Shown piece after piece: positions 1 through 44,255 of a DNA stretch of 64,000 nucleotides. A program made the translations under genes and the position numbers. Under the pieces are notes generated by a model. It made no database searches, was not told the origin of the DNA, and saw only the letters and a program-made list of their open reading frames with translations. Source of the DNA: Nitrosovibrio sp. Nv4. GTDB taxonomy: Bacteria > Pseudomonadota > Gammaproteobacteria > Burkholderiales > Nitrosomonadaceae. The stretch is taken from the NCBI RefSeq assembly GCF_900215485.1, contig NZ_OCMZ01000001.1, positions 1,550,001-1,614,000 of the forward strand. The letters are read 5' to 3'. Numbering within the stretch: position 1 is the first letter of the stretch; each line of letters opens with the position of its first letter.

Positions 1-955
1 TCGCTATTGCGTTGGTGCCCACCGCGGTAAGCCCCATGCCCACGGCCCCCACCCACAACCGCCAGTGGGCGTCCGGGCTTGCCTGCATCGTCACTGCCAT
101 TGCACAAGCCGCTATAACAATAAGAAAAAGCAGAAGTAGCGACTCGTCCTTGAGTCTTGCTCCCATGGGTGTCAACACGATCCTGGATAGCATTCCCATT
201 AGGCCGAAGATAGCGATTAAGGTACCGGCCAGCGGTAGCGGCATGCCTTGCCGGATGGCAAAGGTCGGCAAGAAGGTGACGAAAGCAGAGAGGGATATGC
301 CGACGCAAAACTGGATGACCATCAACCGCAGCAACAGCGGATTCGGAAGCAAAATCCTGAAGCTCCTGCCACTTCCGCTGTGTTGCCTGGGTGTGACGAA
401 ATGCGTTGTTAGTCCAAATAGTATTGCTACAGGAACAATGATCCAGAACGCCGTATGCCAGCCATATTGAGATGCGATACCGGGAAGTATCAGACCTGCG
501 AAAAGAGCGGCGAGCTGAACGCCTGATTGCTTGAGTCCGACAACTGCTGCTTTCTTCTCCGGCGGAACCTGCTGCGCGATCAGTAAATTTGTGACCGGGT
601 TGGCGAGCGCCTGAGCGATTCCGCAGATGGCAGTTGCTGCGACTAAACCATAATAATTTTCAACCGTTGCGATCAGCGCAAAAGCCAACGCGATGGCGGA
701 GAAAAGTATCGTTAACGCATAACGCGAACCGATGCGATCTACAAAAGCCCCTGCCCAGAGCGATAAAACAGCCGCCAGGCCAAATGAGCTCATCACCAGG
801 TAACCCAGCAGTTCGGGCTTGAAATGCAGGTCACGGCCAAGCAAGGGCCCAAGCGTGCTAATGGCATAGAGAACCAGCATGGGCAAGGCCATGGCAAATA
901 CCAGAACAATCCGAAACCAGATGCTTGCAATAGTTGTCGTGGTGCTGGCCATCAT
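1..955 (-). CDS. MFS transporter, 3' end beyond window
   Basis: Translating the minus strand from the ATG at 955 (or the adjacent ATG at 952) gives an open frame of about 318 residues with no stop before position 1, so the gene is partial. It is very hydrophobic, with many predicted membrane helices. A DRIGSR motif after the second helix matches the loop 2-3 signature of the major facilitator superfamily. It starts 66 bp after the acyl-CoA dehydrogenase stop on the same strand and so probably belongs to the same operon. By analogy with siderophore loci it could export the product or an intermediate; the substrate cannot be read from sequence. Confidence 0.85.
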   Translation of the reverse strand, partial: MMASTTTTIASIWFRIVLVFAMALPMLVLYAISTLGPLLGRDLHFKPELLGYLVMSSFGLAAVLSLWAGAFVDRIGSRYALTILFSAIALAFALIATVENYYGLVAATAICGIAQALANPVTNLLIAQQVPPEKKAAVVGLKQSGVQLAALFAGLILPGIASQYGWHTAFWIIVPVAILFGLTTHFVTPRQHSGSGRSFRILLPNPLLLRLMVIQFCVGISLSAFVTFLPTFAIRQGMPLPLAGTLIAIFGLMGMLSRIVLTPMGARLKDESLLLLFLIVIAACAMAVTMQASPDAHWRLWVGAVGMGLTAVGTNAIA

Positions 956-1021
956 CTTTGTTCGTTCCCGCATCGAGACAGAACTTCACCGAACAAGTGC
1001 GGAAGATTCAGAAAGAATGGA

Positions 1022-2230
1022 TCAGGCAAAGTAATACACATCCTCGTCTTTAAAAAAATTGATGAGTCGGCGGCCCACCGAGCTGATAAGCGACTCGTCC
1101 GTGCCATCCAGAATGCGTGAGGTGCGTGCTATCCTGTAAATACCCGAAAGCGGGGTGAGATCGCTGATTCCTTCCGCTCCATACAATTGCACTGCCGAGT
1201 CCGAAGCAGTGCATAGCGCTTGTGACGCCGCTATTTTGGCGACATTGATTTCGACATCGCTTGGACGCCGGGCATCGATGCCCCTTGCAGCTACCCGTAT
1301 TAATTCCCGCGCACTTGCAATCGCTTGATATGCATTGACGACGTGCTGGCGCACCAACTGTTTCTCGGATAACCGGGCGGATTGGCCGCGCTCGGAATTG
1401 ATCCGGGCGCCCATTAGATCGAAACATCGCTGTGCCAAACCCACCCAGTTCATAGAGCGAAGCAATCGGCCAATGCCGAGCCGCTGGCCCATCAGGTCGA
1501 TGCCGCTACCAGGGGAACCGAGAAGGTTGTGCTCAGGCACTTGCACGCCATTGAAAGAAATTTCGCCCTGACCGAGAGAGCGTCCCATCATGGTGATTCG
1601 ACGTTCAATCTTGAATCCTGGTATATCGGACGGAACCAGAATCATGGACAGGGCCTTGCCAGGGATACTATCTGTCCCGGCAGTACGCGCCAGGACGGTG
1701 ACAAAGGTCGCGTGGTCCACATTGCCAACAAACCATTTTCTCCCGTTTATGGTCCAGCTTCCGTCCGACAAATGGGCGGATGTGGTTATCAAGGCAGGGA
1801 ACGAACCGCCATGTCCCGGTTCTGTCATGCCATAACTCGGAACCGCTTTCCCGGTCATCATGGGATCCAGAAAGTTTTTGCGGATTTCATCACCGCCGAA
1901 TTTGAGGAGCATATGCGCATCCAGTGCGGAGTGACTGCCAAAAATCGCAGGCGAGAACTCCGAACGCCCTTCCTGTTCAGCAACAATCAGGTAATCTTCA
2001 AGGGAAGCTATTTTTCCGCCGTGAGAAAGAGGATAAAACAAGCCCCATAGTCCGGCGGATCGCGCTTTTTCGGTTAGTTCGGATTGCAGCCGAAATGATG
2101 AATCTCCACCTCCATTCCCATCCAGCCGCAGCTCGTTTGGAATAATCATTTCATCAACAAATTTTCTCACCTCGCGGGAAAGTGAAATGGCCGGTTCCGT
2201 ATGTGCTGATTTTCTATTGATGCGCAGCAT
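1022..2230 (-). CDS. acyl-CoA dehydrogenase family protein
   Basis: A 402-residue protein of normal family length. It has the alpha-helical N-terminal domain, a middle beta domain with the YGMTEPGHGGS flavin/substrate-binding segment and the NGRKWFVGN strand, and a C-terminal helical domain with YGAEGISD and RILDGTDES near residue 375. These are hallmarks of FAD-dependent acyl-CoA dehydrogenases, which desaturate acyl thioesters at alpha-beta. The start codon overlaps the stop of the upstream acyl ligase by one base (TAATG), so the two are translationally coupled. In this operon the likely substrate is the ligase- or CoA-transferase-bound acyl intermediate rather than a fatty acid. That is inference from context. 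Confidence 0.9.
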   Translation of the reverse strand: MLRINRKSAHTEPAISLSREVRKFVDEMIIPNELRLDGNGGGDSSFRLQSELTEKARSAGLWGLFYPLSHGGKIASLEDYLIVAEQEGRSEFSPAIFGSHSALDAHMLLKFGGDEIRKNFLDPMMTGKAVPSYGMTEPGHGGSFPALITTSAHLSDGSWTINGRKWFVGNVDHATFVTVLARTAGTDSIPGKALSMILVPSDIPGFKIERRITMMGRSLGQGEISFNGVQVPEHNLLGSPGSGIDLMGQRLGIGRLLRSMNWVGLAQRCFDLMGARINSERGQSARLSEKQLVRQHVVNAYQAIASARELIRVAARGIDARRPSDVEINVAKIAASQALCTASDSAVQLYGAEGISDLTPLSGIYRIARTSRILDGTDESLISSVGRRLINFFKDEDVYYFA

Positions 2231-3894
2231 TAATGGGCCTGTTGGGCGAGAACTGGCTCAGCCATCGATTGCGTAAACTCTATCTCCGCAGTCAATCGTT
2301 TTTTATCGATCTTTCCCGCCGGGCTGAGCGGCAATTGCCGGTAATAGCGTAAGTATTCAGGGAGCTTGTTTGTCTCCAGGCCCTGTTGATGCAGATAGTC
2401 GGTGAATTGGGATAGCGAAGGACGTTCGACTCCATCCCGCAACGCCAGGCAGAGGCAAATGCGGTGACCCAGATCCGCATCGGCAACCGGTACACAGGCG
2501 GCGCTAACGACTGCGGGATGGGAAGCAGCAATACTTTCTATTTGAGCGGGGCTGATATTGACGCCACCCCGGATAATGATTTCTTTCTTTCGCCCGGACA
2601 GCACCAGATGCCCGCCATCATCTATTAGACCGAGGTCTCCTGTGTAGACCCATCCATCTTTATCACGGTATAGCGCATCGAGGTCTGGCGCATTGACATA
2701 CTGCATCGGGCTCAGCGGACCCCTGGCTATTATTTCACCGACGCAACCTCGAGGTACTTCCCGCTTCTGGTCATCCACTATCCGGATACAACAAATATCC
2801 GGATTAGGCCGGCCTGCCTTCCGGGAAATGGTTTCCGCATCATCATCAAGCGCGGTATGGCAATTAACCCCATCCGCAGAACCATATAAGCCGATAAATC
2901 CACATCCGAATGCCTCCGTGCATCGGCGAATCGAGGCTTCATCGATTTTCGCTCCGCCGCTAATGATGGCGATCAGGCTGGAAGTATCGGTTTTCGCTAA
3001 CGCCGGGTCCGCGGCGATGCGTTGAAACATAGTGGGTACGCCCAGGATGTGAGTCGGCTTCAGCTCTGCTATCGTTTGAATGGCCGCTGCAACGTCAAAG
3101 TGCCGCAGGACGATAAGCAATCCGCCAAGCCATGACAGGACACCGAATGCCGCAGTTGACCCAAAGGCTGTGCCAAGCGGCATCAGGTAAAGACCCCGGA
3201 AAGTCTTTCCATCAGGATGTATTTGTTGCAGAAAACGCCCTCTGCCACCAGCCAGTGCGTTGTGGGAATAAGCAACCCATTTTGGCTCGGACTCTGTTCC
3301 GGATGAGATCAGGAAGCGAACGGGTGAATCCGGGCAGACTTTTGGTAACTGACGTGATTCAATTGGCTCAGCTTGAAACAGGTCGTTCAGTGCGTACCAG
3401 CCTTCTTCGGCTTTTCCGTCAACAATGAGGACACGCAATGAAAGCAAAGTGGGCCGTATTGCTTCAATAAGCTCGCATAGATCGGTCTTTGCGTGCTCCC
3501 GCTCGACAATAATCACGCGAGCATCACACCGTCTCAGTAAAGACTGAATATCGAGGCGGCCGCGTCCGGGTGGAAAGGGTGCCACGATCGCGCCGAGCGC
3601 GGCAGCCGCGAGATCGATTGCGCAGCTATGCCAACCGTTGGGAAGCTGGTAAGCAACGACATCTCCGGGAACAATCCCCAATTTCCTGAGGCTGGCAGCC
3701 AGGCGATGAACCTTGTCCAATAGCCCCCTGTAAGTGATGGTCTGGTCAAGTGAGGCAACCGCGGGACTATCGGGATGTTGCCGCACATGCTCGCAAAACA
3801 ACTCGTACAGTGATTTATCCGGATAGAGCCCCTTCTGGGACCACTGTTTGCGAATCTCGGCAGGAACGATGTCTATGATTCCGGAATGATTCAT
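2230..3894 (-). CDS. AMP-dependent acyl ligase (acyl-CoA synthetase family)
   Basis: A 554-residue member of the adenylate-forming ANL superfamily. The phosphate-binding loop SSGTESEPK lies at residues 197-205, followed by YGSADG, the YTGDLG adenine-binding motif, the RKKEIIIRGG hinge and a C-terminal SPAGKIDKK segment with the catalytic lysine. All steps for carboxylate adenylation look intact. The ATG overlaps the CaiB-like stop as ATGA, and a GGAG ribosome-binding site lies 7 nt upstream. In thiocarboxylate pathways a ligase of this kind activates the carboxylate that receives sulfur from the carrier protein. It could instead form a CoA thioester, since the neighbours include CoA-type enzymes. 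Confidence 0.9.
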   Translation of the reverse strand: MNHSGIIDIVPAEIRKQWSQKGLYPDKSLYELFCEHVRQHPDSPAVASLDQTITYRGLLDKVHRLAASLRKLGIVPGDVVAYQLPNGWHSCAIDLAAAALGAIVAPFPPGRGRLDIQSLLRRCDARVIIVEREHAKTDLCELIEAIRPTLLSLRVLIVDGKAEEGWYALNDLFQAEPIESRQLPKVCPDSPVRFLISSGTESEPKWVAYSHNALAGGRGRFLQQIHPDGKTFRGLYLMPLGTAFGSTAAFGVLSWLGGLLIVLRHFDVAAAIQTIAELKPTHILGVPTMFQRIAADPALAKTDTSSLIAIISGGAKIDEASIRRCTEAFGCGFIGLYGSADGVNCHTALDDDAETISRKAGRPNPDICCIRIVDDQKREVPRGCVGEIIARGPLSPMQYVNAPDLDALYRDKDGWVYTGDLGLIDDGGHLVLSGRKKEIIIRGGVNISPAQIESIAASHPAVVSAACVPVADADLGHRICLCLALRDGVERPSLSQFTDYLHQQGLETNKLPEYLRYYRQLPLSPAGKIDKKRLTAEIEFTQSMAEPVLAQQAH

Positions 3895-5810
3895 TTAAAT
3901 CTCCACGGAGAATTAACCTGGGTATAAGGGCCAGGACTCAGGCTTGGTTGCAGGTACGCGATGGTTTGCAAGTCGGAGAGGTCTTCAATAACAACGGCCG
4001 CCGGAATTTGCGCCTGTTCAAAAATTCTGGCCCATTCATCCGCCGTTCTTGACAGGAATAAATCGCTCAAGCTATGCGGGAAACCATCTTCTTCAACCTC
4101 GATAGCGGCATCAAGCGCTTCGGAGAGCCGCAACGAGGTTTTGAAGTCAGGGCATTCGACCGCAATCTTTCCCTGCTTCGTGACATAGATAGTGTTGATG
4201 AGGCTCATTGAGGTTTCGCTTGTTGAGGTTTTTGAACCAGGGCTTGGCAGGTTGTATATGTTCCGGAAATCATCCGCGCACAAAAGGGTTGCCGAACTCA
4301 TCAGTGATGAAGTGACCTTCGCACCCACGTTATTCATGCATCGGTTGAGCAGCGCGATAGTGATCCCTTGTGCGGCAACGACGCCTCCAAGCACATCAAG
4401 TACCGTAAATAGGGACCCGCCGCGAATACCAGAGGCCTCGGCAATCTTTTTAGCAACGCCGGAATAGGCCTGCGCCATGAAATCCGTGCCCGGCATTGAA
4501 CTCGATGAGACGTTCGCCGCACTGTCGGTTGCCCAACCACCGGCGTAGACATAAACCAGGGAAGGATTTATCGCGGTCAGCGCTTCGTGGTCAAGATTTA
4601 GCAGCACGGCTTTGCCTGGCGCCCAGTTGTGCAGAAACACATCGGCATGTTCCGCCAGCTTCTTGATTTCCGCTTGTCCAGCTGACGATTTGATATCGAT
4701 TTCCCGAACCGTCTTATATCGGTTCAGCGCATCGAAGCGTGCGGAACAACCCTCGGCCATCGGAGGCATGCCTCGCAGAGGATCCCCGCCGGGGGGTTCT
4801 ATCCGGATGACCTCCGCACCCAGAAGTGAGAGCAAGTGTCCGGCGAGAGGACCCTGAATCCGCCGGCACGATTCGATAACGGTGAGTCCGCTTAACGGCA
4901 GATCACCTGTCGCACGGCTTGATCCTCTACCGTTGCGATTCGACTCGAACAAAAACTCCCACGGACCTTGCCGCCATACGTGCCTGCTGTCATCGTCCTG
5001 GGCTCTGTCATCAATGGAACGGATTGGACAAATAGCCATGCCGGTTCTGGCGCATATTTGTGAAATGCGGTGGTAAGTCAATCTTGATATTGCGCCAGGT
5101 AATTCAGCGGGCAGAGGGGATATAGCTTTGGCATATCTCAGCAAAAAAGCTTTCCATCCCTTTCCGGCCCCTGCTGAACTTACGCCGATCTCGGTCCAGA
5201 ATTTTTGCCACGGTCCGGCATCCAGTGTTTCGAGTTCAAAGATGACGCCGTCCAATGAAACAAAAGGAAGGCAAGCGGAACGTGAGATAGGTTCAGGAAA
5301 CAGGGTCTCAGGTGTTTCAGGAGATTCCGAAGCCGTTGCCCCCGCGATATACTGTCCCACGCTTAACAGGGCTGCCGATGCCATTGAAACAGTGCTGTTC
5401 GACACTGAAAGACCCCGTAGTTGACCAATCGAAGCGGCAACTCCGCCCTGAAGCGCCAGCACGGCAGTCAATGTCGAAACGTAGTTCAATCCCAAAGGCC
5501 GGGATTTACCGTCTGCCCGGCCATGCACCGACATCAACCCGCATGCCGCCTGCATTACGTTTTCTGTCACCGATGCTTGTCCCGAGATATCGTCCCATGG
5601 GGTTACCTCGCATACCACCGGTGTGGTATGGGGCGTCTTGAATTCAAAAGAAAGCGCCCCATTGCCTGAGCAATTCTCATGCGCCTCGGTTTTTATACCC
5701 AACGCCGTAGTCTGATAAAGAAGCGAGGCAGCTATGGCGGCAAAATCAGGGGCTGGGTTTTCTAAGGCGCCAGTTATTACACAGCCCGTTAATGTGCGAT
5801 TCGTACTCAT
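3891..5810 (-). CDS. tandem CaiB/BaiF-type CoA-transferase, degenerate N-half
   Basis: A protein of about 639 residues, roughly 1.5 times a single family III CoA-transferase. The C-terminal half starts at LSGLTVIESCRRIQGPLAG and contains the family core, including GAEVIRIEPPGGDPLRG and PGTDFMAQAYSG with the aspartate expected to form the acyl-enzyme. The N-terminal part keeps only a loose version of the fold around GRADGKSRPLGLNYVS and looks catalytically degenerate. I prefer the ATG at 5810, preceded by AAGGTAAG, to the upstream GTG at 5843. The gene is coupled to the downstream ligase by an ATGA overlap. The likely role is moving CoA between the pathway acid and a donor. Confidence 0.82.
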   Translation of the reverse strand: MSTNRTLTGCVITGALENPAPDFAAIAASLLYQTTALGIKTEAHENCSGNGALSFEFKTPHTTPVVCEVTPWDDISGQASVTENVMQAACGLMSVHGRADGKSRPLGLNYVSTLTAVLALQGGVAASIGQLRGLSVSNSTVSMASAALLSVGQYIAGATASESPETPETLFPEPISRSACLPFVSLDGVIFELETLDAGPWQKFWTEIGVSSAGAGKGWKAFLLRYAKAISPLPAELPGAISRLTYHRISQICARTGMAICPIRSIDDRAQDDDSRHVWRQGPWEFLFESNRNGRGSSRATGDLPLSGLTVIESCRRIQGPLAGHLLSLLGAEVIRIEPPGGDPLRGMPPMAEGCSARFDALNRYKTVREIDIKSSAGQAEIKKLAEHADVFLHNWAPGKAVLLNLDHEALTAINPSLVYVYAGGWATDSAANVSSSSMPGTDFMAQAYSGVAKKIAEASGIRGGSLFTVLDVLGGVVAAQGITIALLNRCMNNVGAKVTSSLMSSATLLCADDFRNIYNLPSPGSKTSTSETSMSLINTIYVTKQGKIAVECPDFKTSLRLSEALDAAIEVEEDGFPHSLSDLFLSRTADEWARIFEQAQIPAAVVIEDLSDLQTIAYLQPSLSPGPYTQVNSPWRFK

Positions 5811-5861
5811 ATTTCTTACCTTACCTATATAGGGCAGGGCCACGTTTGGCGCTCGTTTGGC

Positions 5862-6134
5862 TTATCCTCCGGCGACGGCAGGCAGAATGGTTAACGAGTC
5901 GCCATCATTCAGTCTTGTTGAAAGACCATTACTGAAACGGATATCGTCATCGTTCACGTATATATTGATGAAGCGGCGCGCCTCTCCGCCAGTTATCAGT
6001 TTCTCCTTGATGCCGGGATATTGCTGCTCCATCTGTTCGATAGCTTCAAGCACATTGAAGCCGTCAATTTCGATCCGTTTTTGATTGTTGGTGAGCGGTC
6101 TCAATATGGTTGGGATACTTACGGTAATTGGCAT
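5862..6134 (-). CDS. MoaD/ThiS-like sulfur-carrier protein
   Basis: A 90-residue beta-grasp protein, starting at the ATG at 6134 after an AAGGGGAC ribosome-binding site; an upstream in-frame start at 6173 lacks one. It ends exactly in AVAGG. The C-terminal di-glycine is where E1-like enzymes form an acyl-adenylate and then a thiocarboxylate. The sequence FINIYVNDDDIRF...LNDGDSLTILPAVAGG is typical of the MoaD family. Its neighbours are a MoeZ-like activating enzyme and a JAMM peptidase, and no molybdopterin genes are nearby. A dedicated sulfur donor for a biosynthetic pathway is therefore more likely than molybdenum cofactor synthesis. Confidence 0.9.
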   Translation of the reverse strand: MPITVSIPTILRPLTNNQKRIEIDGFNVLEAIEQMEQQYPGIKEKLITGGEARRFINIYVNDDDIRFSNGLSTRLNDGDSLTILPAVAGG

Positions 6135-6265
6135 ATTTGTCCCCTTGGGATTGGTGGTTATGAAGAAATACAATTGCGAAAAATCAAGAGTTCTTGAGGT
6201 GAAGAGGCGAAGGCCGAACGTTTTCGACTTTATTTAAAGAAAGCCATTGCGAAGCAAGACGCCCC

Positions 6266-6709
6266 TCAAGCCACCATGGATAATTCCCATTCCGATTTAT
6301 ATGAATTCCGCACCCTTACCCGCTCTTCGGTCACCATCCCATCCCAAATGCGAAAACTGCGAATCTCTTTCCCGTACCTGGAGTCTGCCGGAATAATGAC
6401 GTAGTGGCATCGAGGCTCGCGTGCATACTTGACATCGGTTCCGCTAGGATAGGCTGGTGTATTGGTATGCGAGTGGTAGATAACGATTGGTTCTTCGCTA
6501 CGCGCCTCCATTTCTCTCCAGACCCGCAGCTGCTCTTTGGGGTCAAACTGAAAGAATGTTTCCGATTGCGCGGCATTGCGCATCGGGATCAGGCGCAACG
6601 GAAGATTGGACCCGTGGGGGCCGGCAATGACGCCACAGGTTTCGACAGGGTGATCTTTACGCGCTTGGGCAAACATTGCTTCAACTAATTTAGCGTGTAT
6701 GGTCAGCAT
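6266..6709 (-). CDS. JAMM/MPN+ metallopeptidase (Mov34 family)
   Basis: A 147-residue protein with a complete zinc JAMM motif: Glu23, then His79-Ser-His81, seven residues, Ser89, two residues, Asp92. Proteins of this size with this motif include Mec+ of Mycobacterium and QbsD of the thioquinolobactin pathway, which process or recycle small beta-grasp sulfur carriers. A strong AGGAGG site precedes the ATG. It lies between the MoeZ-like and MoaD-like genes on the same strand. Because the partner carrier already ends in Gly-Gly, a role in releasing carrier-product adducts is as plausible as maturation. Confidence 0.9.
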   Translation of the reverse strand: MLTIHAKLVEAMFAQARKDHPVETCGVIAGPHGSNLPLRLIPMRNAAQSETFFQFDPKEQLRVWREMEARSEEPIVIYHSHTNTPAYPSGTDVKYAREPRCHYVIIPADSRYGKEIRSFRIWDGMVTEERVRVRNSYKSEWELSMVA

Positions 6710-6913
6710 AATTTTTCAACCTCCTGAATGTTGGTCATGTATCGAACTGAACTGAAGAAAAATATTTCCCAGGCTGCCGGGGAAAGGTAGTTTTTTAAAA
6801 ACATCGTTGGGTTTATTACTATCTGGTCAGCGAGTCGCAAAAAACTGAACTGTGGCTGAAACGTGAACAGTCAGGGTGAGAAAGCACTGTCATTCGCCGC
6901 CTTGAGATGCGGC

Positions 6914-8083
6914 TCAATAAATGGGAAGTGAGCGATCCACATCTCTTATCCACGCGAGAATTCCCCCATCCAGGCTTTTGACGTTCGTGAAGCCCCGCTT
7001 TTGCATTTCAATGAGAGCATCCCTGGAGCGCACGCCCATTTTGCAATGAAGCACGATGAGGTCTTCCTTGTTGAGTTGAGATAAGACCTCACTGGACATC
7101 ATTTTATTTTTGGGAATATGATTCGCACCTTCTATGCGAACGAGGTTCCATTCTTCGATTCCACGGATATCGATGAGCCGCAAATCCATACCGTTGTCTC
7201 GCATATTTTTCAGTTCCTTTGCACTGATCGTGGGAACATTTGTTTTACCGTCAGCCGGCTGCTTTAGTCCGCACAGTTCCTGGTAATCGGCCAGTCCGGT
7301 TATGGCAGTTCTTGTTGGTGCGCGTCGCAACGGAATAAACCTGAACGTCATATCCAGGGCATCGTAGACAGCAAGCCTGCCAAGTAAGGTTTCACCTAAG
7401 CCAGTGATCAACTTGACAGCCTCGGTCGCCATGATCGCGCCGATCGAGGCGCAGAGGATGCCTAATACCCCGCCCTCCGCGCATGACGGCGCCATTTCCG
7501 CGGGCGGTGGTTCAGGATATAGATCGCGGTAGTTCAGGCCGCGTCCGTTCGGCGCATCTTCCCAAAACACAGAGGCCTGCCCTTCGAACCGAAAAATGGA
7601 CCCCCAGACATATGGTTTTCCAGAGAGCACGCAGGCATCATTGACCAGATATCGCGTGGCGAAATTATCCGTACCGTCTATCACCAGGTCGTAACCCGAA
7701 ATTATCTGAATAGCATTGGTTGCTTCAAGACGTTCATTATGAAGTTGAACGTGAACATAGGGATTCAACTCATTGACCGAGTCCTTCGCGCTTCTGGACT
7801 TGAATCTGCCAACATCCGACTGTCCATGGATAATTTGTCTTTGCAGATTGGATTCATCGACGATATCGAAGTCAATGATTCCCAATGTCCCAACCCCGGC
7901 TGCCGCGAGATAGAGAAGGACCGGGGATCCCAGGCCCCCAGCGCCTATCACCAAGACTTTACTGTTCTTGAGGCGCTTTTGTCCTTCCATGCCAACGTCG
8001 GGAATCAGCAGATGGCGGCTGTACCGCGAGATTTCTTCCGGGGTTAATGCTTCTGAAGGTGCTACTAGCGGTAATAGTTGCAT
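6914..8083 (-). CDS. MoeZ-like adenylyltransferase/sulfurtransferase (ThiF + rhodanese)
   Basis: A 389-residue protein. The start is the ATG at 8083, five bases after a perfect GGAGG, rather than the ATG at 8095. The N-terminal E1-like domain carries the nucleotide loop GAGGLGS (about residues 47-53), RQIIHG and SCAEGGVLG with Cys201. The C-terminal rhodanese domain has the active-site loop HCKMGVRS with Cys347. As in mycobacterial MoeZ, the zinc-binding CxxC pairs of E. coli MoeB are absent. The enzyme should adenylate the carrier's terminal glycine and then transfer sulfur to give a thiocarboxylate. It is the sulfur-entry point of the cluster. Confidence 0.93.
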   Translation of the reverse strand: MQLLPLVAPSEALTPEEISRYSRHLLIPDVGMEGQKRLKNSKVLVIGAGGLGSPVLLYLAAAGVGTLGIIDFDIVDESNLQRQIIHGQSDVGRFKSRSAKDSVNELNPYVHVQLHNERLEATNAIQIISGYDLVIDGTDNFATRYLVNDACVLSGKPYVWGSIFRFEGQASVFWEDAPNGRGLNYRDLYPEPPPAEMAPSCAEGGVLGILCASIGAIMATEAVKLITGLGETLLGRLAVYDALDMTFRFIPLRRAPTRTAITGLADYQELCGLKQPADGKTNVPTISAKELKNMRDNGMDLRLIDIRGIEEWNLVRIEGANHIPKNKMMSSEVLSQLNKEDLIVLHCKMGVRSRDALIEMQKRGFTNVKSLDGGILAWIRDVDRSLPIY

Positions 8084-8210
8084 CAAAACCTCCATGTTTA
8101 AATCATAGAATTCAACATTTAGATCCAGGCGTTTCAGCTTGAATGTTCGGTTCGAAGATGAATCCGGGAAATGAAACAGACGATGCTCCGGTTTACAAGA
8201 TTTTGCTCAA

Positions 8211-10154
8211 TCAGAAGCTCGCCGATAAACCGATCTGGCCCCAGCGCCCCGGCATGGGATATCCTGGGCGATAGGCGTAATTGGCATCCAGGAGATTCTC
8301 CATGGCTACGAAAATTTCGCCTTTCTTTCCCAGCATCGGCAATTGGTAAGACACACGTGCATTCATGATCACAAATGAATCGACTTTTTCGGTATTGACA
8401 GTTCCCGCAGTGCGAGCGCGGTTAAGCGCCAGCACACTCGACTGATATTGGGTATCGACTGTCAAGCGAAAGGGGCCGATCCGTCCATTTATCCCTGCGG
8501 TGACAGCTCTCTTGGGCGTATAGGGCAAATTGTCTATGCTGGGATCAAGCAAGGTCAGTCCGCCAAATACCGTCCAATTCGGGGTAATATTTTGCCGGAC
8601 TGCAATTTCGGCGCCACGCATCACATAGGTGCCGAGATTCAGGAATTGGGGAGGAGGCGGAACATGTGGCGGGAAACCGAAGATATAACGGTTTTTTACC
8701 TGATCAACAAACACGCTGATATCGATTTGTGTGGCATCAACCGGATTCAATTTCACGCCGACCTCCGCATGATTGAGTTCTTCCGCCGCAAGCTGCTTCC
8801 AGCTTTGCCCCAGCGCGGGGATCAGGGAGGAGAGAACGGGAGCTTCCAAACCCGGATAGTTGATGCCACGCGACACATTACCAAACAGGGTAATTTTCTC
8901 GGATACCAGAGACAGACCGGCATGCGGCGAGGTTCTTGTCCGGAACATGCTGTGATCGTACACTCGCATGCCCACCGCGGGCACCAGGGCCCAGCCCTTG
9001 CCTAGATCGATCTTCTGGCTTAGGGCAACATAGGGCGATGTGACGCGGAAAGTCGGCGCATTGAAACTCCCCTGGGGGGCGGGCGCCACACGATTGAATC
9101 GTACGTCACCCGAGATCCAGTCACTGTCCAGTCCTGCAACAATCGTTCCCCCGGACCAAAGAGAGAACTCTTCCTTCCAGCGCAGACCGGTCATTTGAAA
9201 ATTGGTAGGCGTATCCCCCTCCAGACCGGACTGATGCAGCCAGTTGCCTTCTCCCCTGTTGTGGTAAAAACGCAGGTCGCCGCGCCAATCACCATGACGA
9301 TGCGATGCAAAAACGGAAACCATTCCGGCCTGAGTGTTGTACTGCGGCGCCACGGCGGGCGCCGGAAGACGGTTGTCACCCGGATCACGCGCCTGGTTGT
9401 CGACATAAAGAAAGCTCGTGCCAACAGACCAATTGTCGGTCAGCCGCATGCCAATGCGGCCCATGACATTGTTCAATTCGCCGCCGGCATTGAGTCGATG
9501 CCCATTCGACTGGGCATGGCCTTGTGCCAGCATGAAATCTACACTTCCGTAGCGGCCAACCAGATCCGCCTGTTCGATAAAGGTGCTGAAGTAGCCACCG
9601 GAAATCCTTGCACTGGCCTGGATACCATCTTCGGCTGCGCGCTTCGTTTCCAGGTTGATCGAGGCAAAGTTGTTGCCGTTGATCTGTGGTTGCGGGCTTT
9701 TATAGACAGTGATGGATTGCATGCCGTTAACGGGCAGCAAATCGAGCAGTGGATGACTCCACACACCCATGTAAAACGGAACGCCATCAATGTAGGTTTT
9801 GATTTCACTACCCGGCCGGCTCACGCCCATTCCGCGGATATAAACAGCGCCGCCCTGATCGCCGCCAAAGGCGCCCACCGGGTTGTAGCGAGATATTTGC
9901 ACACCGGGGGTGCGGCGTAGTGCCGTAGCAAGATCGAATGCATTCTGATCGCGCAACTGGCTTTCGGTCACCACCGCGGATGTGCTTGAAAACGGATCGA
10001 TGCGGACGCTATCAATGATCGGGTTGGCCGTCACAACAACCGGAGATAGTTTGGTGCTCGGAGATGGTGCTGTACTCTGTGCCATTGCAAACCTTGAAAA
10101 GACCATTGTTATGGCCATTGATATGACGGCCACTGCGGTTTTTCTTATTCTCAT
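8211..10154 (-). CDS. TonB-dependent outer-membrane receptor
   Basis: A 647-residue protein with an N-terminal signal peptide ending near FAMAQS, a plug domain (ATALRRTPGVQISRY, then VYIRGMG, then YIDGVPF) and a long beta-barrel that ends in phenylalanine, as outer-membrane porins require. It is a metallophore/vitamin type of receptor. It is the most upstream gene of the sulfur-carrier cluster and co-directional with it, 127 bp before the MoeZ-like gene, so uptake of the cluster's product as a metal chelate is the natural reading. Near-tandem GAATRA hexamers overlapping the start (about 10144-10163) are only a weak hint of Fur control. Direct substrate evidence is lacking. Confidence 0.93.
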   Translation of the reverse strand: MRIRKTAVAVISMAITMVFSRFAMAQSTAPSPSTKLSPVVVTANPIIDSVRIDPFSSTSAVVTESQLRDQNAFDLATALRRTPGVQISRYNPVGAFGGDQGGAVYIRGMGVSRPGSEIKTYIDGVPFYMGVWSHPLLDLLPVNGMQSITVYKSPQPQINGNNFASINLETKRAAEDGIQASARISGGYFSTFIEQADLVGRYGSVDFMLAQGHAQSNGHRLNAGGELNNVMGRIGMRLTDNWSVGTSFLYVDNQARDPGDNRLPAPAVAPQYNTQAGMVSVFASHRHGDWRGDLRFYHNRGEGNWLHQSGLEGDTPTNFQMTGLRWKEEFSLWSGGTIVAGLDSDWISGDVRFNRVAPAPQGSFNAPTFRVTSPYVALSQKIDLGKGWALVPAVGMRVYDHSMFRTRTSPHAGLSLVSEKITLFGNVSRGINYPGLEAPVLSSLIPALGQSWKQLAAEELNHAEVGVKLNPVDATQIDISVFVDQVKNRYIFGFPPHVPPPPQFLNLGTYVMRGAEIAVRQNITPNWTVFGGLTLLDPSIDNLPYTPKRAVTAGINGRIGPFRLTVDTQYQSSVLALNRARTAGTVNTEKVDSFVIMNARVSYQLPMLGKKGEIFVAMENLLDANYAYRPGYPMPGRWGQIGLSASF

Positions 10155-10402
10155 TCTTATTCTTTTCTTTGAATTGTCTGTGCTGGAAGAGAAGACCTAC
10201 TAATGTCAAAGACATATAGTTTTCTGAATCCCATGTGCTTCCGCACACGACCGACGCAATGAGTTTGTTTCTTATGATGGACAAATATAAATTGCCATGG
10301 CAGGACGGCAATCGGGAGCTTGAAACAACCGCTTAAACGCGGTTACAAACACCCATATACTTGCTGATATGGAATGTAAATCAAATCGATGAGATTAGGA
10401 AT

Positions 10403-10453
10403 GTGACATATTGTCGCATGTGACAAATTGACGCATGTGACATATTGTCGCAC
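10403..10453. repeat. three tandem 17-bp iterons, possible operator
   Basis: Three head-to-tail copies of a 17-mer, GTGACATATTGTCGCAT, at 10403-10419, 10420-10436 and 10437-10453. Copy two differs at two positions and copy three only at the last base. Each copy contains a near-palindrome around GACATATTGTC. They sit about 250-300 bp upstream of the TonB receptor start, in the 444-bp gap behind the carotenoid gene. Exact helical-scale spacing suggests a protein-binding array, perhaps the regulator site of the cluster. The remainder of 10155-10598 shows no gene I can support. Confidence 0.6.
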
Positions 10454-10598: not shown

Positions 10599-11423
10599 CT
10601 AACCCTGCGCCGGCAAACGACCGAGGAGCCGGAGGGCAAGCAGTGCGGTGACGGGAAGATAAATGAAAAGACCGGTCATTCCTAAAAGGTGCTCTCCAAT
10701 CCAGAAAGTGATAGCGAGATTGAAGATCAATACCCCATAATAAAGACCGCAGCCGAGGAGTATGCGTCTGGTGATCAGCGGGGCAGGAGAGAGACTGGTC
10801 TGAGCAAGTTTGCGATCCAGAGGAAGATAGGCAAGAAGCGAGAGGAAGGCTACGACAGCCCAGCCAATATAGTTCGCGATCGGTACACCGAAATGCGTAC
10901 CAGGATCGGGATAGTAATATATCTGCCCGAGAAACCACCGTTCGCCGCGGAGCGTGGCCGGATCAATAATGATATCGAGGTACGTGAAAAAAATCATCGT
11001 GAGCACCACCACGGGCCAACCGGTTCTCGTTGCAAGTGGAAATCCCATCGGTATCATGTTGATACCAGAACCGGCGTTGCTGCTGCTGTTCGCAGGCAGA
11101 AGAAAAGCCAGGGCCATGCAATAGCTCGCATAAAGAAGAAAGGGAAACGAGAGAGAATCCATAAACGGGACATTCGAGATATACAATTCCTGGCCGACCG
11201 TGGAACCGGTATAGTGATACCAGCCGAACGGAATCCCGGTGCGAGTAGAAGAGAACTCGCACAAAAATGCCACAACAAACGTGATTCCCATGAAACAGCC
11301 TGTTCTTCTCCAGCCGATCAGCCTGCTTGCCAGGAACAGAAACACGGCGAGAAATACGAAAACGTAGGGGCGCAGGATAATTGTCTTTAGCAGGAGGCTA
11401 AGGAATTCCATCGGACGTTCCAT
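10599..11423 (-). CDS. CruF-like carotenoid biosynthesis membrane protein
   Basis: A 274-residue integral membrane protein with about seven hydrophobic segments. The order of the motifs EFSSTRTGIPFGWYHYT, the helix around FPFLLYASYCMALAF and TYLDIIIDPATLRGERW...GQIYYYPDPGTHFGVPIANYIGW matches the COG2324 family that includes the carotenoid 1',2'-hydratase CruF and bisanhydrobacterioruberin hydratase. The conserved Glu, His and Asp residues in these motifs are present. No other carotenoid gene lies in the window, so the exact substrate is open. It is on the same strand as the receptor cluster, but the 444-bp gap and iterons argue for separate control. Confidence 0.8.
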   Translation of the reverse strand: MERPMEFLSLLLKTIILRPYVFVFLAVFLFLASRLIGWRRTGCFMGITFVVAFLCEFSSTRTGIPFGWYHYTGSTVGQELYISNVPFMDSLSFPFLLYASYCMALAFLLPANSSSNAGSGINMIPMGFPLATRTGWPVVVLTMIFFTYLDIIIDPATLRGERWFLGQIYYYPDPGTHFGVPIANYIGWAVVAFLSLLAYLPLDRKLAQTSLSPAPLITRRILLGCGLYYGVLIFNLAITFWIGEHLLGMTGLFIYLPVTALLALRLLGRLPAQG

Positions 11424-15681: not shown

Positions 15682-16311
15682 ATGATTACTCATCGCCTGA
15701 TTCTGTTCGCCGCCTTGTTCGCGGCACACACTGCTGTCGCTGCAGAGATAAATGGTTGCCCTATCAGATCGGGCACACTCTGCGTAGAGTGGGATCTTCG
15801 TGGCGCCGATTTGCATGGCGCGGATCTTGCTCGAGCTGGGTTTCGCCAATCCCATTTAAACGGCGCCGACTTGCAGGGTGCGAATTTATTCAATGCCAAC
15901 ATGGACATGGTCGATCTCACCGGTGCCAACCTCAGTGGGGCAATATTGGATGAGGCCGATCTGAAAAATGCCACAATGGTTGATGCCAGGCTTAATCTCA
16001 CGCGGCTTAAAGACACGAATCTTAAAAGCGCCAACTTGGCGGGCGCTAATCTCACTGGCGCATTGCTCAAGGGCGCTAATTTAAGTGGCGCGAATCTTAC
16101 CAGGGCTCTGTTTCGCAATGCCCAGCTTCAAAGAGCGGATTTATCGGGCACAGTGATGACACAGGCTGATTTTCGCGGTGCTGACCTCACTAGGGCGAAG
16201 CTGGACAATGCAATGTTGCAAGGGGCTGATTTTAGAGGCGCGATCCTCGACGAAGTTGATTTTTCCAGCGTAAATACTGAGGGCTGCCAGGGCTGCCCGG
16301 AAGCGAAGTAG
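15682..16311 (+). CDS. secreted pentapeptide-repeat protein
   Basis: A 209-residue protein from the ATG at 15682, preceded by TGAGGA. A signal peptide ends near AVAAE. It is followed by about 30 tandem A(D/N)LxG-type pentapeptides (ADLHG, ADLAR, ADLQG, ANLFN and so on). These repeats form a right-handed quadrilateral beta-helix. Two cysteines near the N-terminus (GCPI, LCVEW) and two at the C-terminus (GCQGC) could form disulfides at the ends of the helix. The export signal argues against a DNA-gyrase-mimic role, known only for cytoplasmic relatives. Function unknown. Confidence 0.85.
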   Translation: MITHRLILFAALFAAHTAVAAEINGCPIRSGTLCVEWDLRGADLHGADLARAGFRQSHLNGADLQGANLFNANMDMVDLTGANLSGAILDEADLKNATMVDARLNLTRLKDTNLKSANLAGANLTGALLKGANLSGANLTRALFRNAQLQRADLSGTVMTQADFRGADLTRAKLDNAMLQGADFRGAILDEVDFSSVNTEGCQGCPEAK

Positions 16312-16488
16312 TTAAATGGCCGCGGTTATTTGATGGTGTTACCGACGGGTCGCAGAAATTCGACGCCAGCCACTGGCGCCGACAAGTAAAAAAAGCGGCG
16401 GTATTCACATTTAATACCCAGAAGGCATAAGGCGGAGACCAGCTTCGCCCCAGCGCGGGGCAGAAATAACATTCTGTGAAGAACTGTT

Positions 16489-17949
16489 ATGGCTATCGAG
16501 TTCAAAAGCAACCTTGCTTCAACTTCGGTTCCGCTTAAACATTCCTGGGAACATACCGTGGGTAGCGGGCGTGCGTTGCTTGCGCTGCGCGCCGACTGGC
16601 AGGCGCAATTGATGCGGGCACATACCGAGCTCGGATTTCGTCACGTACGCTTTCATGGCCTGCTTGATGACGATATGGGTACGTTGGTCCGCCACGCCGG
16701 GAAAGCCCTCTACTCCTTTTTTAACGCGGATCAAATCAACGACTATCTGCTGTCTATCGGCATGAGGCCATTCGTCGAGCTTTCCTTTATGCCTTCGATG
16801 CTGTCTTCAGGTCGCTCTACCGTGTTTCAATATCGGGCCAACATTACTCCGCCCAAAAATTACCGGCAATGGGGAAAGCTTATCGACAGACTGGTACGTC
16901 ACTGGATTGACCGCTATGGATCGGATGAAATTGGCGAATGGTGCCTGGAGGTATGGAACGAACCCAACCTGAAGGCGTTCTGGACAGGCGGTAAAAAAGG
17001 TTACTACGCGCTTTACCGTACTACCGTCGAAACCATAAAAAATATAGATTCCGCGCTGAAAGTGGGTGGCCCCTCGAGCGCCCAGAGCGCCTGGATCCCA
17101 GAGTTTCTTGATTATTGTACTCAACACAAGCTCCCGGTTGATTTTGTCAGCACGCATTATTATCCCACCGACGCCTTTGGCCAAATTGGCGCCGACACAC
17201 TTACCCAGCTCGAACACGCACCACGGGATGTAATGAAAGAGAAGGCAGAAACCGCGAGCTTACAAGCCCGGGGCCTGTCGCTCTATTACACTGAATGGAA
17301 TGTTAGTTCGAATCCGCGCGATCCGTTACACGACGAGTCCTTTGCCGCCGCGTACGCCGCGAATATCGCGCTATCGGTTGACCCGTTTGTCAAGGGTTAC
17401 AGCTTCTGGACCTTTACTGATATTTTCGAGGAGAATTATTTTCCCAGCGTCCCTTTTCACGGCGGCTTCGGTCTCCTGAATCTGCACGGCATTCCCAAGC
17501 CAATCTATAGAGCGTTTCAGCTGCTGCATGGTTTAGGCGACAAACTCCATCAGGTGGAAGGCTCGCATGAAACAGTCAGCGTATGGATAAGTGGAGGAGA
17601 TAACGTCATTACCGTATTTATGACCAATTACGCCATGCCCCGCCATGAAATATGCCCGGTTTCTGTCCACGTGCAGCTAACTGGCGCACCGCGACCGTTG
17701 TCGGCGCACCTGATACGCATTGATGAAGACAACGTAAATCCGAAGCGCGTCTGGCAGGAAATGGGCGAGCCTGAATACCTGAACCTGCGTGACGTAGAGA
17801 CACTGCAATCCGCCTCGGTGCTGAACCCTGAGCCGTATCCATTGCGCGTCCTGGAAAATCGCATAGATTTCAATATCTCGATGCCGCCGCAATCGGTAGC
17901 AGCAATGAAAATTGAGTGTGCGCCCGGCAGCACACCTGAACGGTCCTGA
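16489..17949 (+). CDS. glycoside hydrolase family 39 protein
   Basis: A 486-residue protein with a TIM-barrel hydrolase signature. WNEPNLKAFW (about residue 164) carries the acid/base glutamate, and LYYTEWNVSS (about residue 268) carries the nucleophile glutamate. These are the GH39 motifs of beta-xylosidases and alpha-L-iduronidases. A C-terminal beta domain follows. No signal peptide is seen, so it should act in the cytoplasm. It lies 54 bp before a glucoamylase-like gene on the same strand, and the two probably form an operon for turning over an internal or imported glycan. Substrate not determinable. Confidence 0.85.
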   Translation: MAIEFKSNLASTSVPLKHSWEHTVGSGRALLALRADWQAQLMRAHTELGFRHVRFHGLLDDDMGTLVRHAGKALYSFFNADQINDYLLSIGMRPFVELSFMPSMLSSGRSTVFQYRANITPPKNYRQWGKLIDRLVRHWIDRYGSDEIGEWCLEVWNEPNLKAFWTGGKKGYYALYRTTVETIKNIDSALKVGGPSSAQSAWIPEFLDYCTQHKLPVDFVSTHYYPTDAFGQIGADTLTQLEHAPRDVMKEKAETASLQARGLSLYYTEWNVSSNPRDPLHDESFAAAYAANIALSVDPFVKGYSFWTFTDIFEENYFPSVPFHGGFGLLNLHGIPKPIYRAFQLLHGLGDKLHQVEGSHETVSVWISGGDNVITVFMTNYAMPRHEICPVSVHVQLTGAPRPLSAHLIRIDEDNVNPKRVWQEMGEPEYLNLRDVETLQSASVLNPEPYPLRVLENRIDFNISMPPQSVAAMKIECAPGSTPERS

Positions 17950-18003
17950 ACGAGGGACGCGAGAAGCGAGGTTGAAATTCCATGCCAGCGGTAAAACTTG
18001 ATC

Positions 18004-19323
18004 ATGCGCATACCTGAGCTCATAGCGTCCGAACAATCCAGGCAAGATGAGATGCTCATAAGTCTGCAGCAGGACTCGTTCGCATATTTCGTCCACAAAA
18101 TCAACCCCGCGAATGGACTCGTCCTGGACAAGTCGCATTCTGATTGGCCAGCAAGTATTGCCGCGGTGGGCCTCGCGCTCGCGGCCTATCCGGTTGGAGT
18201 TGAACGCGGTTTCATGACCCGGGAAGAGGCTGTGAAGCGTACGCTCATCGTGTTGAAGTTTTTCGCGAACGCACCCCATGGCCCCGAGCGCGATGCTACC
18301 GGGTACAAGGGTTTTTATTATCATTTCCTGGACATGAATACAGGAAAACGCGTCTGGAATTGCGAACTCTCCAGCGTCGACACTGCCTTCCTGATCGCCG
18401 GCATGCTCATTGCAAGGGCTTACTATAAACATGAGACGGAGGAGGAAGGGGAAATCCGCAAACTCGCAGATGAACTTTACAGGCGCGTTGATTGGCAATG
18501 GATGCAGAAGGGAGAGGCTGCGGTAAGCCATGGCTGGACGCCCGAAAAAGGTTTTCTGCCTTATCAGTGGACAGGTTATGACGAAGCGTTGATCCTCTAC
18601 CTGCTGGGATTGGGCTCACCCACGCATCCATTATCTGACGAAAGCTATGCGGCATGGACTTCAACCTACAAATGGAAAAAGATCTATGACATAGAGTTTC
18701 TTTATGCGGGACCGTTATTCATTCATCAGTTGTCGCATGCATGGATCGATTTTCGCGGAATTCGGGATTCATTCATGCGTGAGCGCGGTAGCGACTACTT
18801 CGAAAATTCTCGTTGCGCGACGCTCGTTCAGCAACGGTACGCGGCGCGTAACCCGCTCGAGTTCAAGCATTACAATGAATATTGCTGGGGTATAACTTCC
18901 AGCGACGGCCCCGGCCCTGTTGCCAGGCAGGTGGACGGCATCCTTCGGGTTTTTTATGATTACATCGGACGCGGCGCCCCCTATGGCCCGGATGATGGCA
19001 CATTAGCACCGTGGGCGGTGGTCGCTTCGCTCCCGTTCGCGCCCGATATTGTGCTCCCGACCATCGAGAACTACGAACGCATGAACCTGAGAGAAGCCCA
19101 GAAGTATGGCTACAAGGCCACGTTCAACCCCACCTTCCCGGTTGAGCCGTACCACGAATTCGGATGGGTATCGCCCTATCACTTTGGTTTGAACCAGGGA
19201 CCTATCGTCATGATGATTGAAAATTATCGCTCTGGATTGTTGTGGTCGCTGATGCGGCAATGCCCTTATCTGGTGACTGGTTTGCGCCGTGCAGGATTTC
19301 GTGGAGGCTGGCTGGAGGGTTAG
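18004..19323 (+). CDS. glucoamylase-like protein (COG5368 family)
   Basis: About 439 residues from the ATG at 18004. It shows the alpha/alpha-barrel features of the putative glucoamylase family: SLQQDSFAYFVHKINPANGLVLDKS near the start, WQWMQ, FLPYQWTGYDEALILYLLGLGSPTHPL, WGITSSDGPGP and a C-terminal GWVSPYHFGLNQGPIVMMIENYRSGLLW. The family probably hydrolyses beta- or alpha-glucans, but few members are characterised. There is no signal peptide. It follows the GH39 gene closely. Confidence 0.82.
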   Translation: MRIPELIASEQSRQDEMLISLQQDSFAYFVHKINPANGLVLDKSHSDWPASIAAVGLALAAYPVGVERGFMTREEAVKRTLIVLKFFANAPHGPERDATGYKGFYYHFLDMNTGKRVWNCELSSVDTAFLIAGMLIARAYYKHETEEEGEIRKLADELYRRVDWQWMQKGEAAVSHGWTPEKGFLPYQWTGYDEALILYLLGLGSPTHPLSDESYAAWTSTYKWKKIYDIEFLYAGPLFIHQLSHAWIDFRGIRDSFMRERGSDYFENSRCATLVQQRYAARNPLEFKHYNEYCWGITSSDGPGPVARQVDGILRVFYDYIGRGAPYGPDDGTLAPWAVVASLPFAPDIVLPTIENYERMNLREAQKYGYKATFNPTFPVEPYHEFGWVSPYHFGLNQGPIVMMIENYRSGLLWSLMRQCPYLVTGLRRAGFRGGWLEG

Positions 19324-44000: not shown

Positions 44001-44255
44001 ATGTCAATGTCATATTATCGCAGCTCGGCTGCTGTGGAGGTAATAAGTAGCGCCCATCATGCATCTCTGCTGGTTGCGCTGCACGTTACAAAGCGGCAAA
44101 ATGGCGCAAAGGCGAGCAATCGCGTAAGCATCAGAGCGGGAAAACGCAGCACGCCCGGGTCCTCTTACGAGGCGCTCAGCATCGCGGGTTCCGTTATGAC
44201 TTTTCTGCACTGGTTCGGGGGGACCGACACCAGTGCTGAGTCTGAAAATGTCTAA
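44001..44255 (+). CDS. 84-residue protein coupled to reverse transcriptase
   Basis: An ATG at 44001, eight bases after AGGAG, opens an 84-residue frame (MSMSYYRSSAAVEVISS...TSAESENV) whose stop overlaps the reverse-transcriptase ATG by 8 bp, suggesting translational coupling. Its middle is encoded by copy B of the 148-bp repeat. Between the copies, three of four amino-acid changes in this frame are conservative (Leu/Val, Val/Ile, Ile/Leu), which hints that the frame is translated. No family is recognised. The alternative is that this region is the template of a structured RNA used by the reverse transcriptase. Confidence 0.45.
   Translation: MSMSYYRSSAAVEVISSAHHASLLVALHVTKRQNGAKASNRVSIRAGKRSTPGSSYEALSIAGSVMTFLHWFGGTDTSAESENV
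44047..44194 (+). repeat. 148-bp direct repeat, copy B
   Basis: Second copy of the repeat at 43645-43792, ending 53 bp before the reverse-transcriptase ATG. Differences are at five sites: TC to AA, T to G, G to A and A to C. Three of these have A in copy B and one has A in copy A, so the pattern is not adenine-specific. Confidence 0.85.

Follow-up and report, generated by a model that had tools for sequence, protein, structure and literature searches.

We analysed a window of 64,000 nucleotides (nt) from Nitrosovibrio sp. Nv4, positions 1550001-1614000 of contig NZ_OCMZ01000001.1 in a genome of 3.27 Mb; coordinates given below without a locus name are positions in this window. Its first 10,154 nt hold a gene cluster that an earlier interpretation of the letters, hereafter the sequence-only reading, had described as eight co-directional genes making, exporting and re-importing a thiocarboxylate-containing metal chelator. 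The gene inventory was confirmed: eight open reading frames (ORFs) lie where that reading had placed them, all on the minus strand, and each has a significant Pfam match.

In the direction of transcription the cluster begins with a TonB-dependent outer-membrane receptor gene (8211-10154; Plug 7e-16), whose kin in the PDB are weak (Fiu, 4e-6). It is followed by a MoeZ/PdtF-type E1 adenylyltransferase with a rhodanese domain carrying LHCKMGVR (6914-8095; ThiF 3e-79, rhodanese 3e-16), a PdtG-type JAMM/JAB metallopeptidase with the motif HSHTNTPAYPSGTD (6266-6709; Prok-JAB 2e-30) and a CysO/PdtH-type sulfur carrier (5862-6134; ThiS 3e-15). Then come a two-domain type III CoA-transferase, here called CaiB, of the PdtI/QbsK/PtmU4 thioacid synthase type (3891-5810; CoA_transf_3 1e-64 and tree placement), a PdtJ-type acyl/aryl-acid AMP ligase (2230-3894; AMP-binding 5e-59, tree placement and identity to pdt-type ligases), an acyl-CoA dehydrogenase (ACAD) identified by Pfam and resembling ACAD11 (1022-2230; top PDB kin ACAD11, 9e-49) and an MFS transporter, probably an exporter (1-973; MFS_1 1e-37). 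The MFS gene crosses the window edge with its N-terminal three quarters inside; the whole gene was read alongside the related locus L002, and the operon ends 304 nt outside the window (position -304). Upstream, 5' of the TonB gene and likewise on the minus strand, a pattern scan found three tandem 17-nt dyads of the TGCGACA-N3-TGTCACA type (10402-10452), which resemble RegA/RegR/PrrA sites.

The tight coupling described earlier holds for the CaiB-ligase-ACAD-MFS part, with spacings of -4, -1 and 48 nt, but not upstream, where the gaps are 115 nt (TonB-MoeZ), 204 nt (MoeZ-JAMM), 131 nt (JAMM-carrier) and 51 nt (carrier-CaiB). Alignment with relatives points to ATG 6134 and ATG 5810 as the likely starts of the carrier and CaiB, a GTG at 5843 being an alternative for the latter. 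The carrier ends in AVAGG; with the GG exposed in this way, trimming by the JAMM protein should be unneeded. Scans for promoters (11 hits against 9.5, standard deviation 2.7, in shuffles) and terminators (18 against 12.3, standard deviation 3.8) were left unused.

Conserved gene order and distribution

The cluster was compared across 31 related loci chosen by their CaiB gene, two of which (L007 and L070) come from one genome. From 18 initial loci the partial L012 and L015-L020 (25-29% identity, mostly in the C-terminal half) were left out; for the 35 cluster-bearing genomes of the family 20 stretches were fetched, the rest being among the initial loci or, as with G039, not looked at. Among the named organisms that the loci come from, Nitrosovibrio sp. 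Nv6 is the closest (L003; CaiB 95% identical). The order MoeZ-JAMM-carrier-CaiB-ligase-ACAD-MFS is kept across the loci, with MoeZ, JAMM, CaiB and ligase in order in 31/31 (the ligase shortened in L067 and, at a contig end, in L062) and ACAD and MFS in 29/31. This arrangement is far beyond chance.

The motifs, previously reported as intact, are conserved as well: the rhodanese CxxGxR and the JAMM HxHx7Sx2D each occur in 33/33 aligned sequences and the ACAD LDG in 31/31. With a narrower rhodanese pattern 24 of 33 matched. In the window's ACAD the Asp of the stretch LDGTDE stands at what we take to be the expected position of the catalytic base. In 23 of 33 sequences GG is the very end of the carrier; the other ten are extended or fused. 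In a single genome, Nitrosospira multiformis Nl18, the carrier is fused in frame to CaiB as one ORF (L007:9698-11911; the genome of L070), which links the two proteins; JAMM-type cleavage would be needed there to free the GG end.

Past the MFS gene the loci share an alpha/beta hydrolase gene in reversed orientation (24/31; in the window's genome the next gene, on the other strand), an alginate-export-like porin (28/31), a 393-amino-acid protein (28/31) and an amidohydrolase (26/31, on the opposite side in the Methylobacter copy L014), some of the absences being due to the end of a contig or locus. Neither Pfam nor NCBIfam gives a match to the 393-residue protein at E <= 0.001. As its profile matches unsaturated glucuronyl hydrolase (8e-15) and its predicted structure (pLDDT 73.7) the same hydrolases (1e-11, TM about 0.7), it is assigned a GH88-type fold by modelling. 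The expectation that a scaffold gene might lie before position 1 was not borne out: none was seen in the 18 kb beyond it, where ORFs were read by eye and five checked against Pfam.

A few loci depart from this layout. The cluster of genome G052 (L067:11357-20000) stops within the ligase, and no ACAD, MFS or later gene was found in that stretch. The JAMM gene of G094 is present in tandem duplicate (L112:15726-16169 and 16257-16700), with identical 147-residue translations. Between JAMM and carrier, L006 (9099-9590) and L009 (9032-9592) encode a protein, probably secreted, whose C-terminus is rich in His (HHHHHR / HDHHHM); no Pfam family scored above its cut-off for it. A CruF (carotenoid-like) gene at 10599-11423 was considered as a cluster member and rejected, its match adjoining the operon only in L003 among 12 related loci. 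Elsewhere in the window lie a reverse-transcriptase gene (44233-45441; RVT_1, 1e-27) and, at 16489-19323, the gene of a GH39 glycosidase and, after it, that of a putative glucoamylase.

A CaiB profile search found the cluster in 35 of 125 Nitrosomonadaceae genomes; 15 of these belong to the window's genus, which has 23 genomes in the set, and 20 to a second genus. Five of 311 genomes of the methanotroph order matched, three of them real relatives (G125, G412 and, in pieces, G126) and two partial, at the threshold. Only the window's own genome held a CaiB relative in a class-wide sample (1/369). Among 1161 plasmid records matched, a single one, the Burkholderia multivorans qbs-type locus, covers at least 80% of CaiB. 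An AMO-family gene was found in the Methylobacter genome (G125) and not in G126, the two tested.

Misbinning of the contig that carries the Methylobacter copy was considered and rejected, because a flanking 5'-nucleotidase is matched at 65-80% in the other seven methanotroph-order genomes searched, whereas five genomes of Nitrosomonadaceae gave no match; hence this is a true methanotroph contig. Together with the patchy distribution this makes horizontal transfer of the block between ammonia oxidisers and methanotrophs likely. As to its direction the two trees conflict: the CaiB tree places L014 with Nitrosospira-type sequences (97/96) and the ligase tree places it outside the nitrifiers.

Kinship with the pdt and qbs pathways

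The sequence-only reading had related the cluster to both the pyridine-dithiocarboxylate (PDTC; pdt) and the thioquinolobactin (qbs) pathways. A CaiB relative at E <= 1e-40 was present in 12 of 398 Pseudomonadaceae genomes, 11 of which we call pdt-type, a label resting on gene content and order and not on a named PDTC cluster record; the twelfth (L149) is qbs-type. The core PdtF-J, an MFS gene and a GH88-fold gene occur in 11/11 pdt-type genomes (CaiB being split across two frames in G806) and ACAD in 10/11. PdtM-like proteins, with a class-III aminotransferase domain in the three tested, occur in 10/11 and PdtL-like ones in 9/11. Three of these genomes hold a receptor and an AraC regulator in the PdtK and PdtC positions, and a fourth has a receptor fragment at the edge. 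It should be noted that the names and roles of PdtC, PdtE, PdtK, PdtL and PdtM are taken as we presume them to be, or were assigned by position.

The nitrifier ligases are on average 64% identical to pdt-type and 37% to qbs-type ligases, and the CaiB proteins 48% and 37%; MoeZ (65% and 62%) does not discriminate. In the ligase and CaiB trees, rooted at the midpoint and built without rows under 400 residues (L067 and L151 for the ligase, L148 and L151 for CaiB), the qbs sequences fall outside with 100/100 support in both, and the nitrifier-methanotroph group is supported by 81/100 and 98/98, respectively. On the ligase identities and the agreeing trees the cluster is assigned to the pdt branch of thiocarboxylate pathways and not to the qbs branch, so the kinship proposed earlier is narrowed to pdt. 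The more general proposal, a thiocarboxylate small-molecule pathway of this kind in a nitrifier, is thereby supported at the level of sequence.

The closest PDB matches of the ligase are the aryl-acid ligases PchD and DhbE. The stretch expected in its acid pocket reads TAFGS in 32/32 nitrifier and methanotroph sequences, SSFGS in 11/11 pdt-type and SPFGS in 2/2 qbs-type sequences. With such a difference within the pdt branch, the substrate is probably pdt-like, possibly not identical. The AHN stretch of salicylate/dihydroxybenzoate ligases, which presumably lines the acid pocket, is absent.

Receptor, upstream dyads and candidate regulator

At a threshold of E <= 1e-60 an ortholog of the TonB receptor is present in 15/15 cluster-positive and 3/8 cluster-negative genomes of the window's genus (0.0017, one-sided, computed by hand), one of the latter three matches being partial. 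Of the 20 cluster-positive genomes of the second genus one has it, the search being aimed at this receptor only, and a TonB receptor gene stands directly upstream of the block in 12 of the 31 loci. Re-import as first proposed is thus retained in part. Because the ortholog is so unevenly shared between the two genera, re-import by this receptor appears to be largely a Nitrosospira-type feature and not universal. In a fourth genus (G118, G120, G122 and G123) a TonB receptor of 63-65% identity occurs without a CaiB gene; it is possible that such receptor-only genomes use another cell's product.

Of 33 loci, 29 carry tandem 17-nt dyads 5' of their TonB or MoeZ gene, where the background of the same loci predicts 0.005 per 500 nt. 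The search pattern was adjusted to the loci once they had been inspected, its ends being widened to C/G to cover Nitrosomonas-type sites; the background was counted with this same pattern. Loci were oriented by the CaiB strand. The four loci without dyads are the three methanotroph loci and L057, and a scan of 17 stretches from pseudomonads and Burkholderia gave none. In the window the outer two dyads match the strict pattern exactly and the middle one has one mismatch.

The strict dyad occurs at four places in the window's genome, two of them at this locus; a reversed control gave none. Of the other two, the one in L101 precedes a gene that matches BNR weakly and has a TonB receptor gene behind it, and the one in L102 separates a TonB-ExbB-ExbD-FecR series from a divergently oriented sigma-70-family gene. 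Among six genomes searched, an exact dyad stands 5' of a sensor kinase/RegA-type operon in three, not including the window's own (families were assigned in G025), and G094 has no strict site. Some strict sites look accidental, such as one inside an ORF of G025 (L108).

Each of eight genomes has one clearly best RegA-like protein, scoring 193 bits in the window's genome and in all cases below the 250-bit NCBIfam cut-off. In its outer halves the dyad agrees with the RegR pattern as published, but it does not share the fixed spacer letters of RegR. Site patterns for RegA/PrrA/RegR (GNGRC-N5-GNCGC-like) are degenerate across the family (PMC5506826). We suggest that a RegBA-type redox system probably controls the operon.

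The same dyads also precede, in three Nitrosomonas-type genomes (G013, G035 and G010), a family of probably secreted proteins, 37-64% mutually identical (L105:5480-6220, L111:5792-7430, L052:1749-2513, L079:165-962), with no significant Pfam match in the two members tested. Its neighbours are genes for a thioredoxin-fold protein (L052), DUF3570 (L105 and L111) and ApbE (L105), and the member in L079 flanks the cluster in a methanotroph.

Interpretation and known systems

We estimate a probability of about 0.6 that the cluster encodes a pdt-type pathway for a small thiocarboxylate metal chelator, the product most likely being PDTC or a close pyridine-thiocarboxylate relative. MoeZ would place sulfur on the CysO-like carrier as a C-terminal thiocarboxylate. 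By analogy with PtmA3 the ligase would convert a ring carboxylic acid into the acyl-AMP and then the acyl-CoA, and by analogy with PtmU4 the CoA-transferase would exchange CoA for carrier sulfur to give the thioacid. PtmA3 and PtmU4, related to OrfJ and OrfI of pdt, make a thioacid in vitro (PMC6006322), and Iyer et al. 2006 give dipicolinic acid as the skeleton of PDTC (PMC1779556). Since the cluster belongs to the pdt branch and lacks scaffold genes, we infer dipicolinate or its dihydro form as the acid. ACAD may oxidise a ring intermediate, plausibly dihydrodipicolinate-like, drawn from the lysine/diaminopimelate pathway, and such a source would explain why the cluster holds no scaffold gene. 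The MFS protein would export the product, which the adjoining porin may pass through the outer membrane; in Nitrosospira-type genomes the TonB receptor would re-import the metal complex, and the operon would be under RegBA-type redox control.

Several observations weigh against this interpretation. None of 29 nitrifier loci has a match to the PdtL- or PdtM-like genes, and a search for the N-terminal domain of PdtM, run without a positive control, gave 0/125 genomes of the family; the pseudomonad locus L148 also lacks both genes within 20 kb, and therefore they may not define the pdt type. That type is itself defined here by gene content and order, and one of its members, G990, is without ACAD. 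The invariant TA-for-SS difference in the ligase may indicate another substrate. Further, the receptor ortholog occurs in the three cluster-negative genomes of the window's genus and is missing from most cluster-bearing genomes of the second, and the dyads are missing from the methanotroph loci.

Some of the enzymes are also known from primary sulfur metabolism. CysO-Mec-CysM is a mycobacterial cysteine-synthesis module, and carrier, JAMM and MoeZ could form such a module here with unrelated neighbours. The carrier is indeed closest in the PDB to CysO-family chains, matched over its full length (4n6e, 100 bits; 3dwg, presumably M. tuberculosis CysO, 95 bits), and its GG end is exposed in most sequences. 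Conservation of the trio with cysteine or molybdopterin genes, in place of the ligase and receptor, had been named beforehand as a finding that would speak against a chelator pathway. As far as the ligase goes, this check came out in favour of the pathway: the trio stays with CaiB and the ligase in 31/31 loci, which were picked by CaiB, and neither a cysteine synthase nor a molybdopterin gene lies in the block; the same trio occurs in pdt-type and qbs-type clusters, and the carrier-CaiB fusion points the same way. We regard a cysteine module as highly improbable. A saccharide- or uronate-linked pathway in which the GH88-fold protein, the porin, the amidohydrolase and ACAD act on a sugar acid, the thioacid being an intermediate, could draw on the retention of the first three of these genes in 28, 28 and 26 of the 31 loci and on the GH88 gene of every pdt-type pseudomonad genome. 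It has to contend with a ligase close to the pdt-type and, in the PDB, to aryl-acid enzymes, and with the porin and amidohydrolase not being found in 12 pseudomonad loci, and we consider it very unlikely.

The same chemistry might also serve a main purpose other than metal uptake, the product being an excreted antimicrobial, a redox-active or detoxifying compound or a signal, with the Nitrosospira receptor as a later addition. That 19 of the second genus's 20 cluster-bearing genomes lack the receptor ortholog (E <= 1e-60) fits this, as does control that looks redox-type (Fur boxes were not searched for), and thioacid cassettes also serve antibiotics such as thioplatensimycin (PMC6006322). Against it, pdt and qbs are described as siderophore pathways in PMC1779556, presence of the receptor follows that of the cluster within the window's genus, and the other dyad sites adjoin TonB-receptor and TonB-ExbB-ExbD genes. 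We think such a role unlikely, and keep the chelator pathway as the preferred explanation.

A more speculative reading goes further: the product would be a thiocarboxylate chalkophore, its genes spread horizontally and common to some gammaproteobacterial methanotrophs as well as ammonia oxidisers, that delivers copper to the ammonia or methane monooxygenase. It would be under RegBA control in the ammonia oxidisers and stand as a non-peptide counterpart of methanobactin, the receptor-only genomes perhaps being cheaters. We hold this extension to be doubtful. Copper specificity was not read from the distribution, because the block is present in only 35/125 Nitrosomonadaceae and 3/311 methanotroph-order genomes and has relatives in pseudomonads.

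The pdt-like siderophore operons of Nitrosomonas europaea and Nitrosospira multiformis were listed by Iyer et al. 2006, whose Table 1, row 4a, gives a core of E1-rhodanese, JAB, ThiS-like carrier, CaiB and AMP ligase (PMC1779556); the window's cluster has this PdtF-J core. We found no follow-up to that listing in the literature searched, nor, with most subscription papers outside its coverage, any report on the product, the extended block, the methanotroph copies or the dyads. A table in a 2022 review scores Nitrosomonas europaea as without siderophore or chalkophore biosynthesis (PMC9693385), and the main text of a 2026 paper on the copper needs of ammonia oxidisers (PMC13003922) does not contain the words chalkophore, siderophore or thiocarbox-. 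The cluster suggests an unrecognised route of metal acquisition for ammonia oxidisers and a few methanotrophs. If the product is made, nitrifiers would have a small, possibly copper-active ligand of their own and a link between metal uptake and redox control, and there would be concrete genes for testing trace-metal limits on nitrification and methane oxidation.

Among known systems, the pdt cluster for PDTC of Pseudomonas stutzeri and P. putida, seen here through the 11 Pseudomonadaceae genomes, shares the PdtF-G-H-I-J core in the same order, the MFS, GH88-fold and ACAD genes alongside it and a ligase 64% identical on average. It differs in its PdtL/PdtM-like genes, AraC regulator, PdtE-like MFS protein and PdtK-like receptor, all unmatched in the 29 nitrifier loci, whereas the nitrifiers add the alpha/beta hydrolase, the porin, the amidohydrolase, the RegA-like dyads and, in one genus, their own TonB receptor. 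The qbs loci (L078 of Burkholderia multivorans, and L149) have MoeZ, JAMM, carrier, CaiB and ligase in common with the window, but their ligases, to which the nitrifier ligase is 37% identical, are fused to a methyltransferase; L078 also has tryptophan dioxygenase and FAD monooxygenase genes, and no ACAD or GH88 gene was found within the stretches examined. Neither kynurenine-pathway scaffold genes nor such a fusion are present in the window's cluster, and none were recognised in the 18 kb beyond. The Mycobacterium CysO-Mec-CysM module is alike in carrier sequence, exposed GG, JAMM and MoeZ; here, in contrast, the trio is tied to a ligase and a transferase, with no cysteine synthase in the block. 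The thioplatensimycin enzymes PtmA3 and PtmU4 pair, as here, an acyl-CoA synthetase with a two-domain type III CoA-transferase fed by a sulfur carrier, but they belong to an actinobacterial antibiotic pathway whose carrier, JAMM and MoeZ homologue are encoded elsewhere in the genome (PMC6006322).

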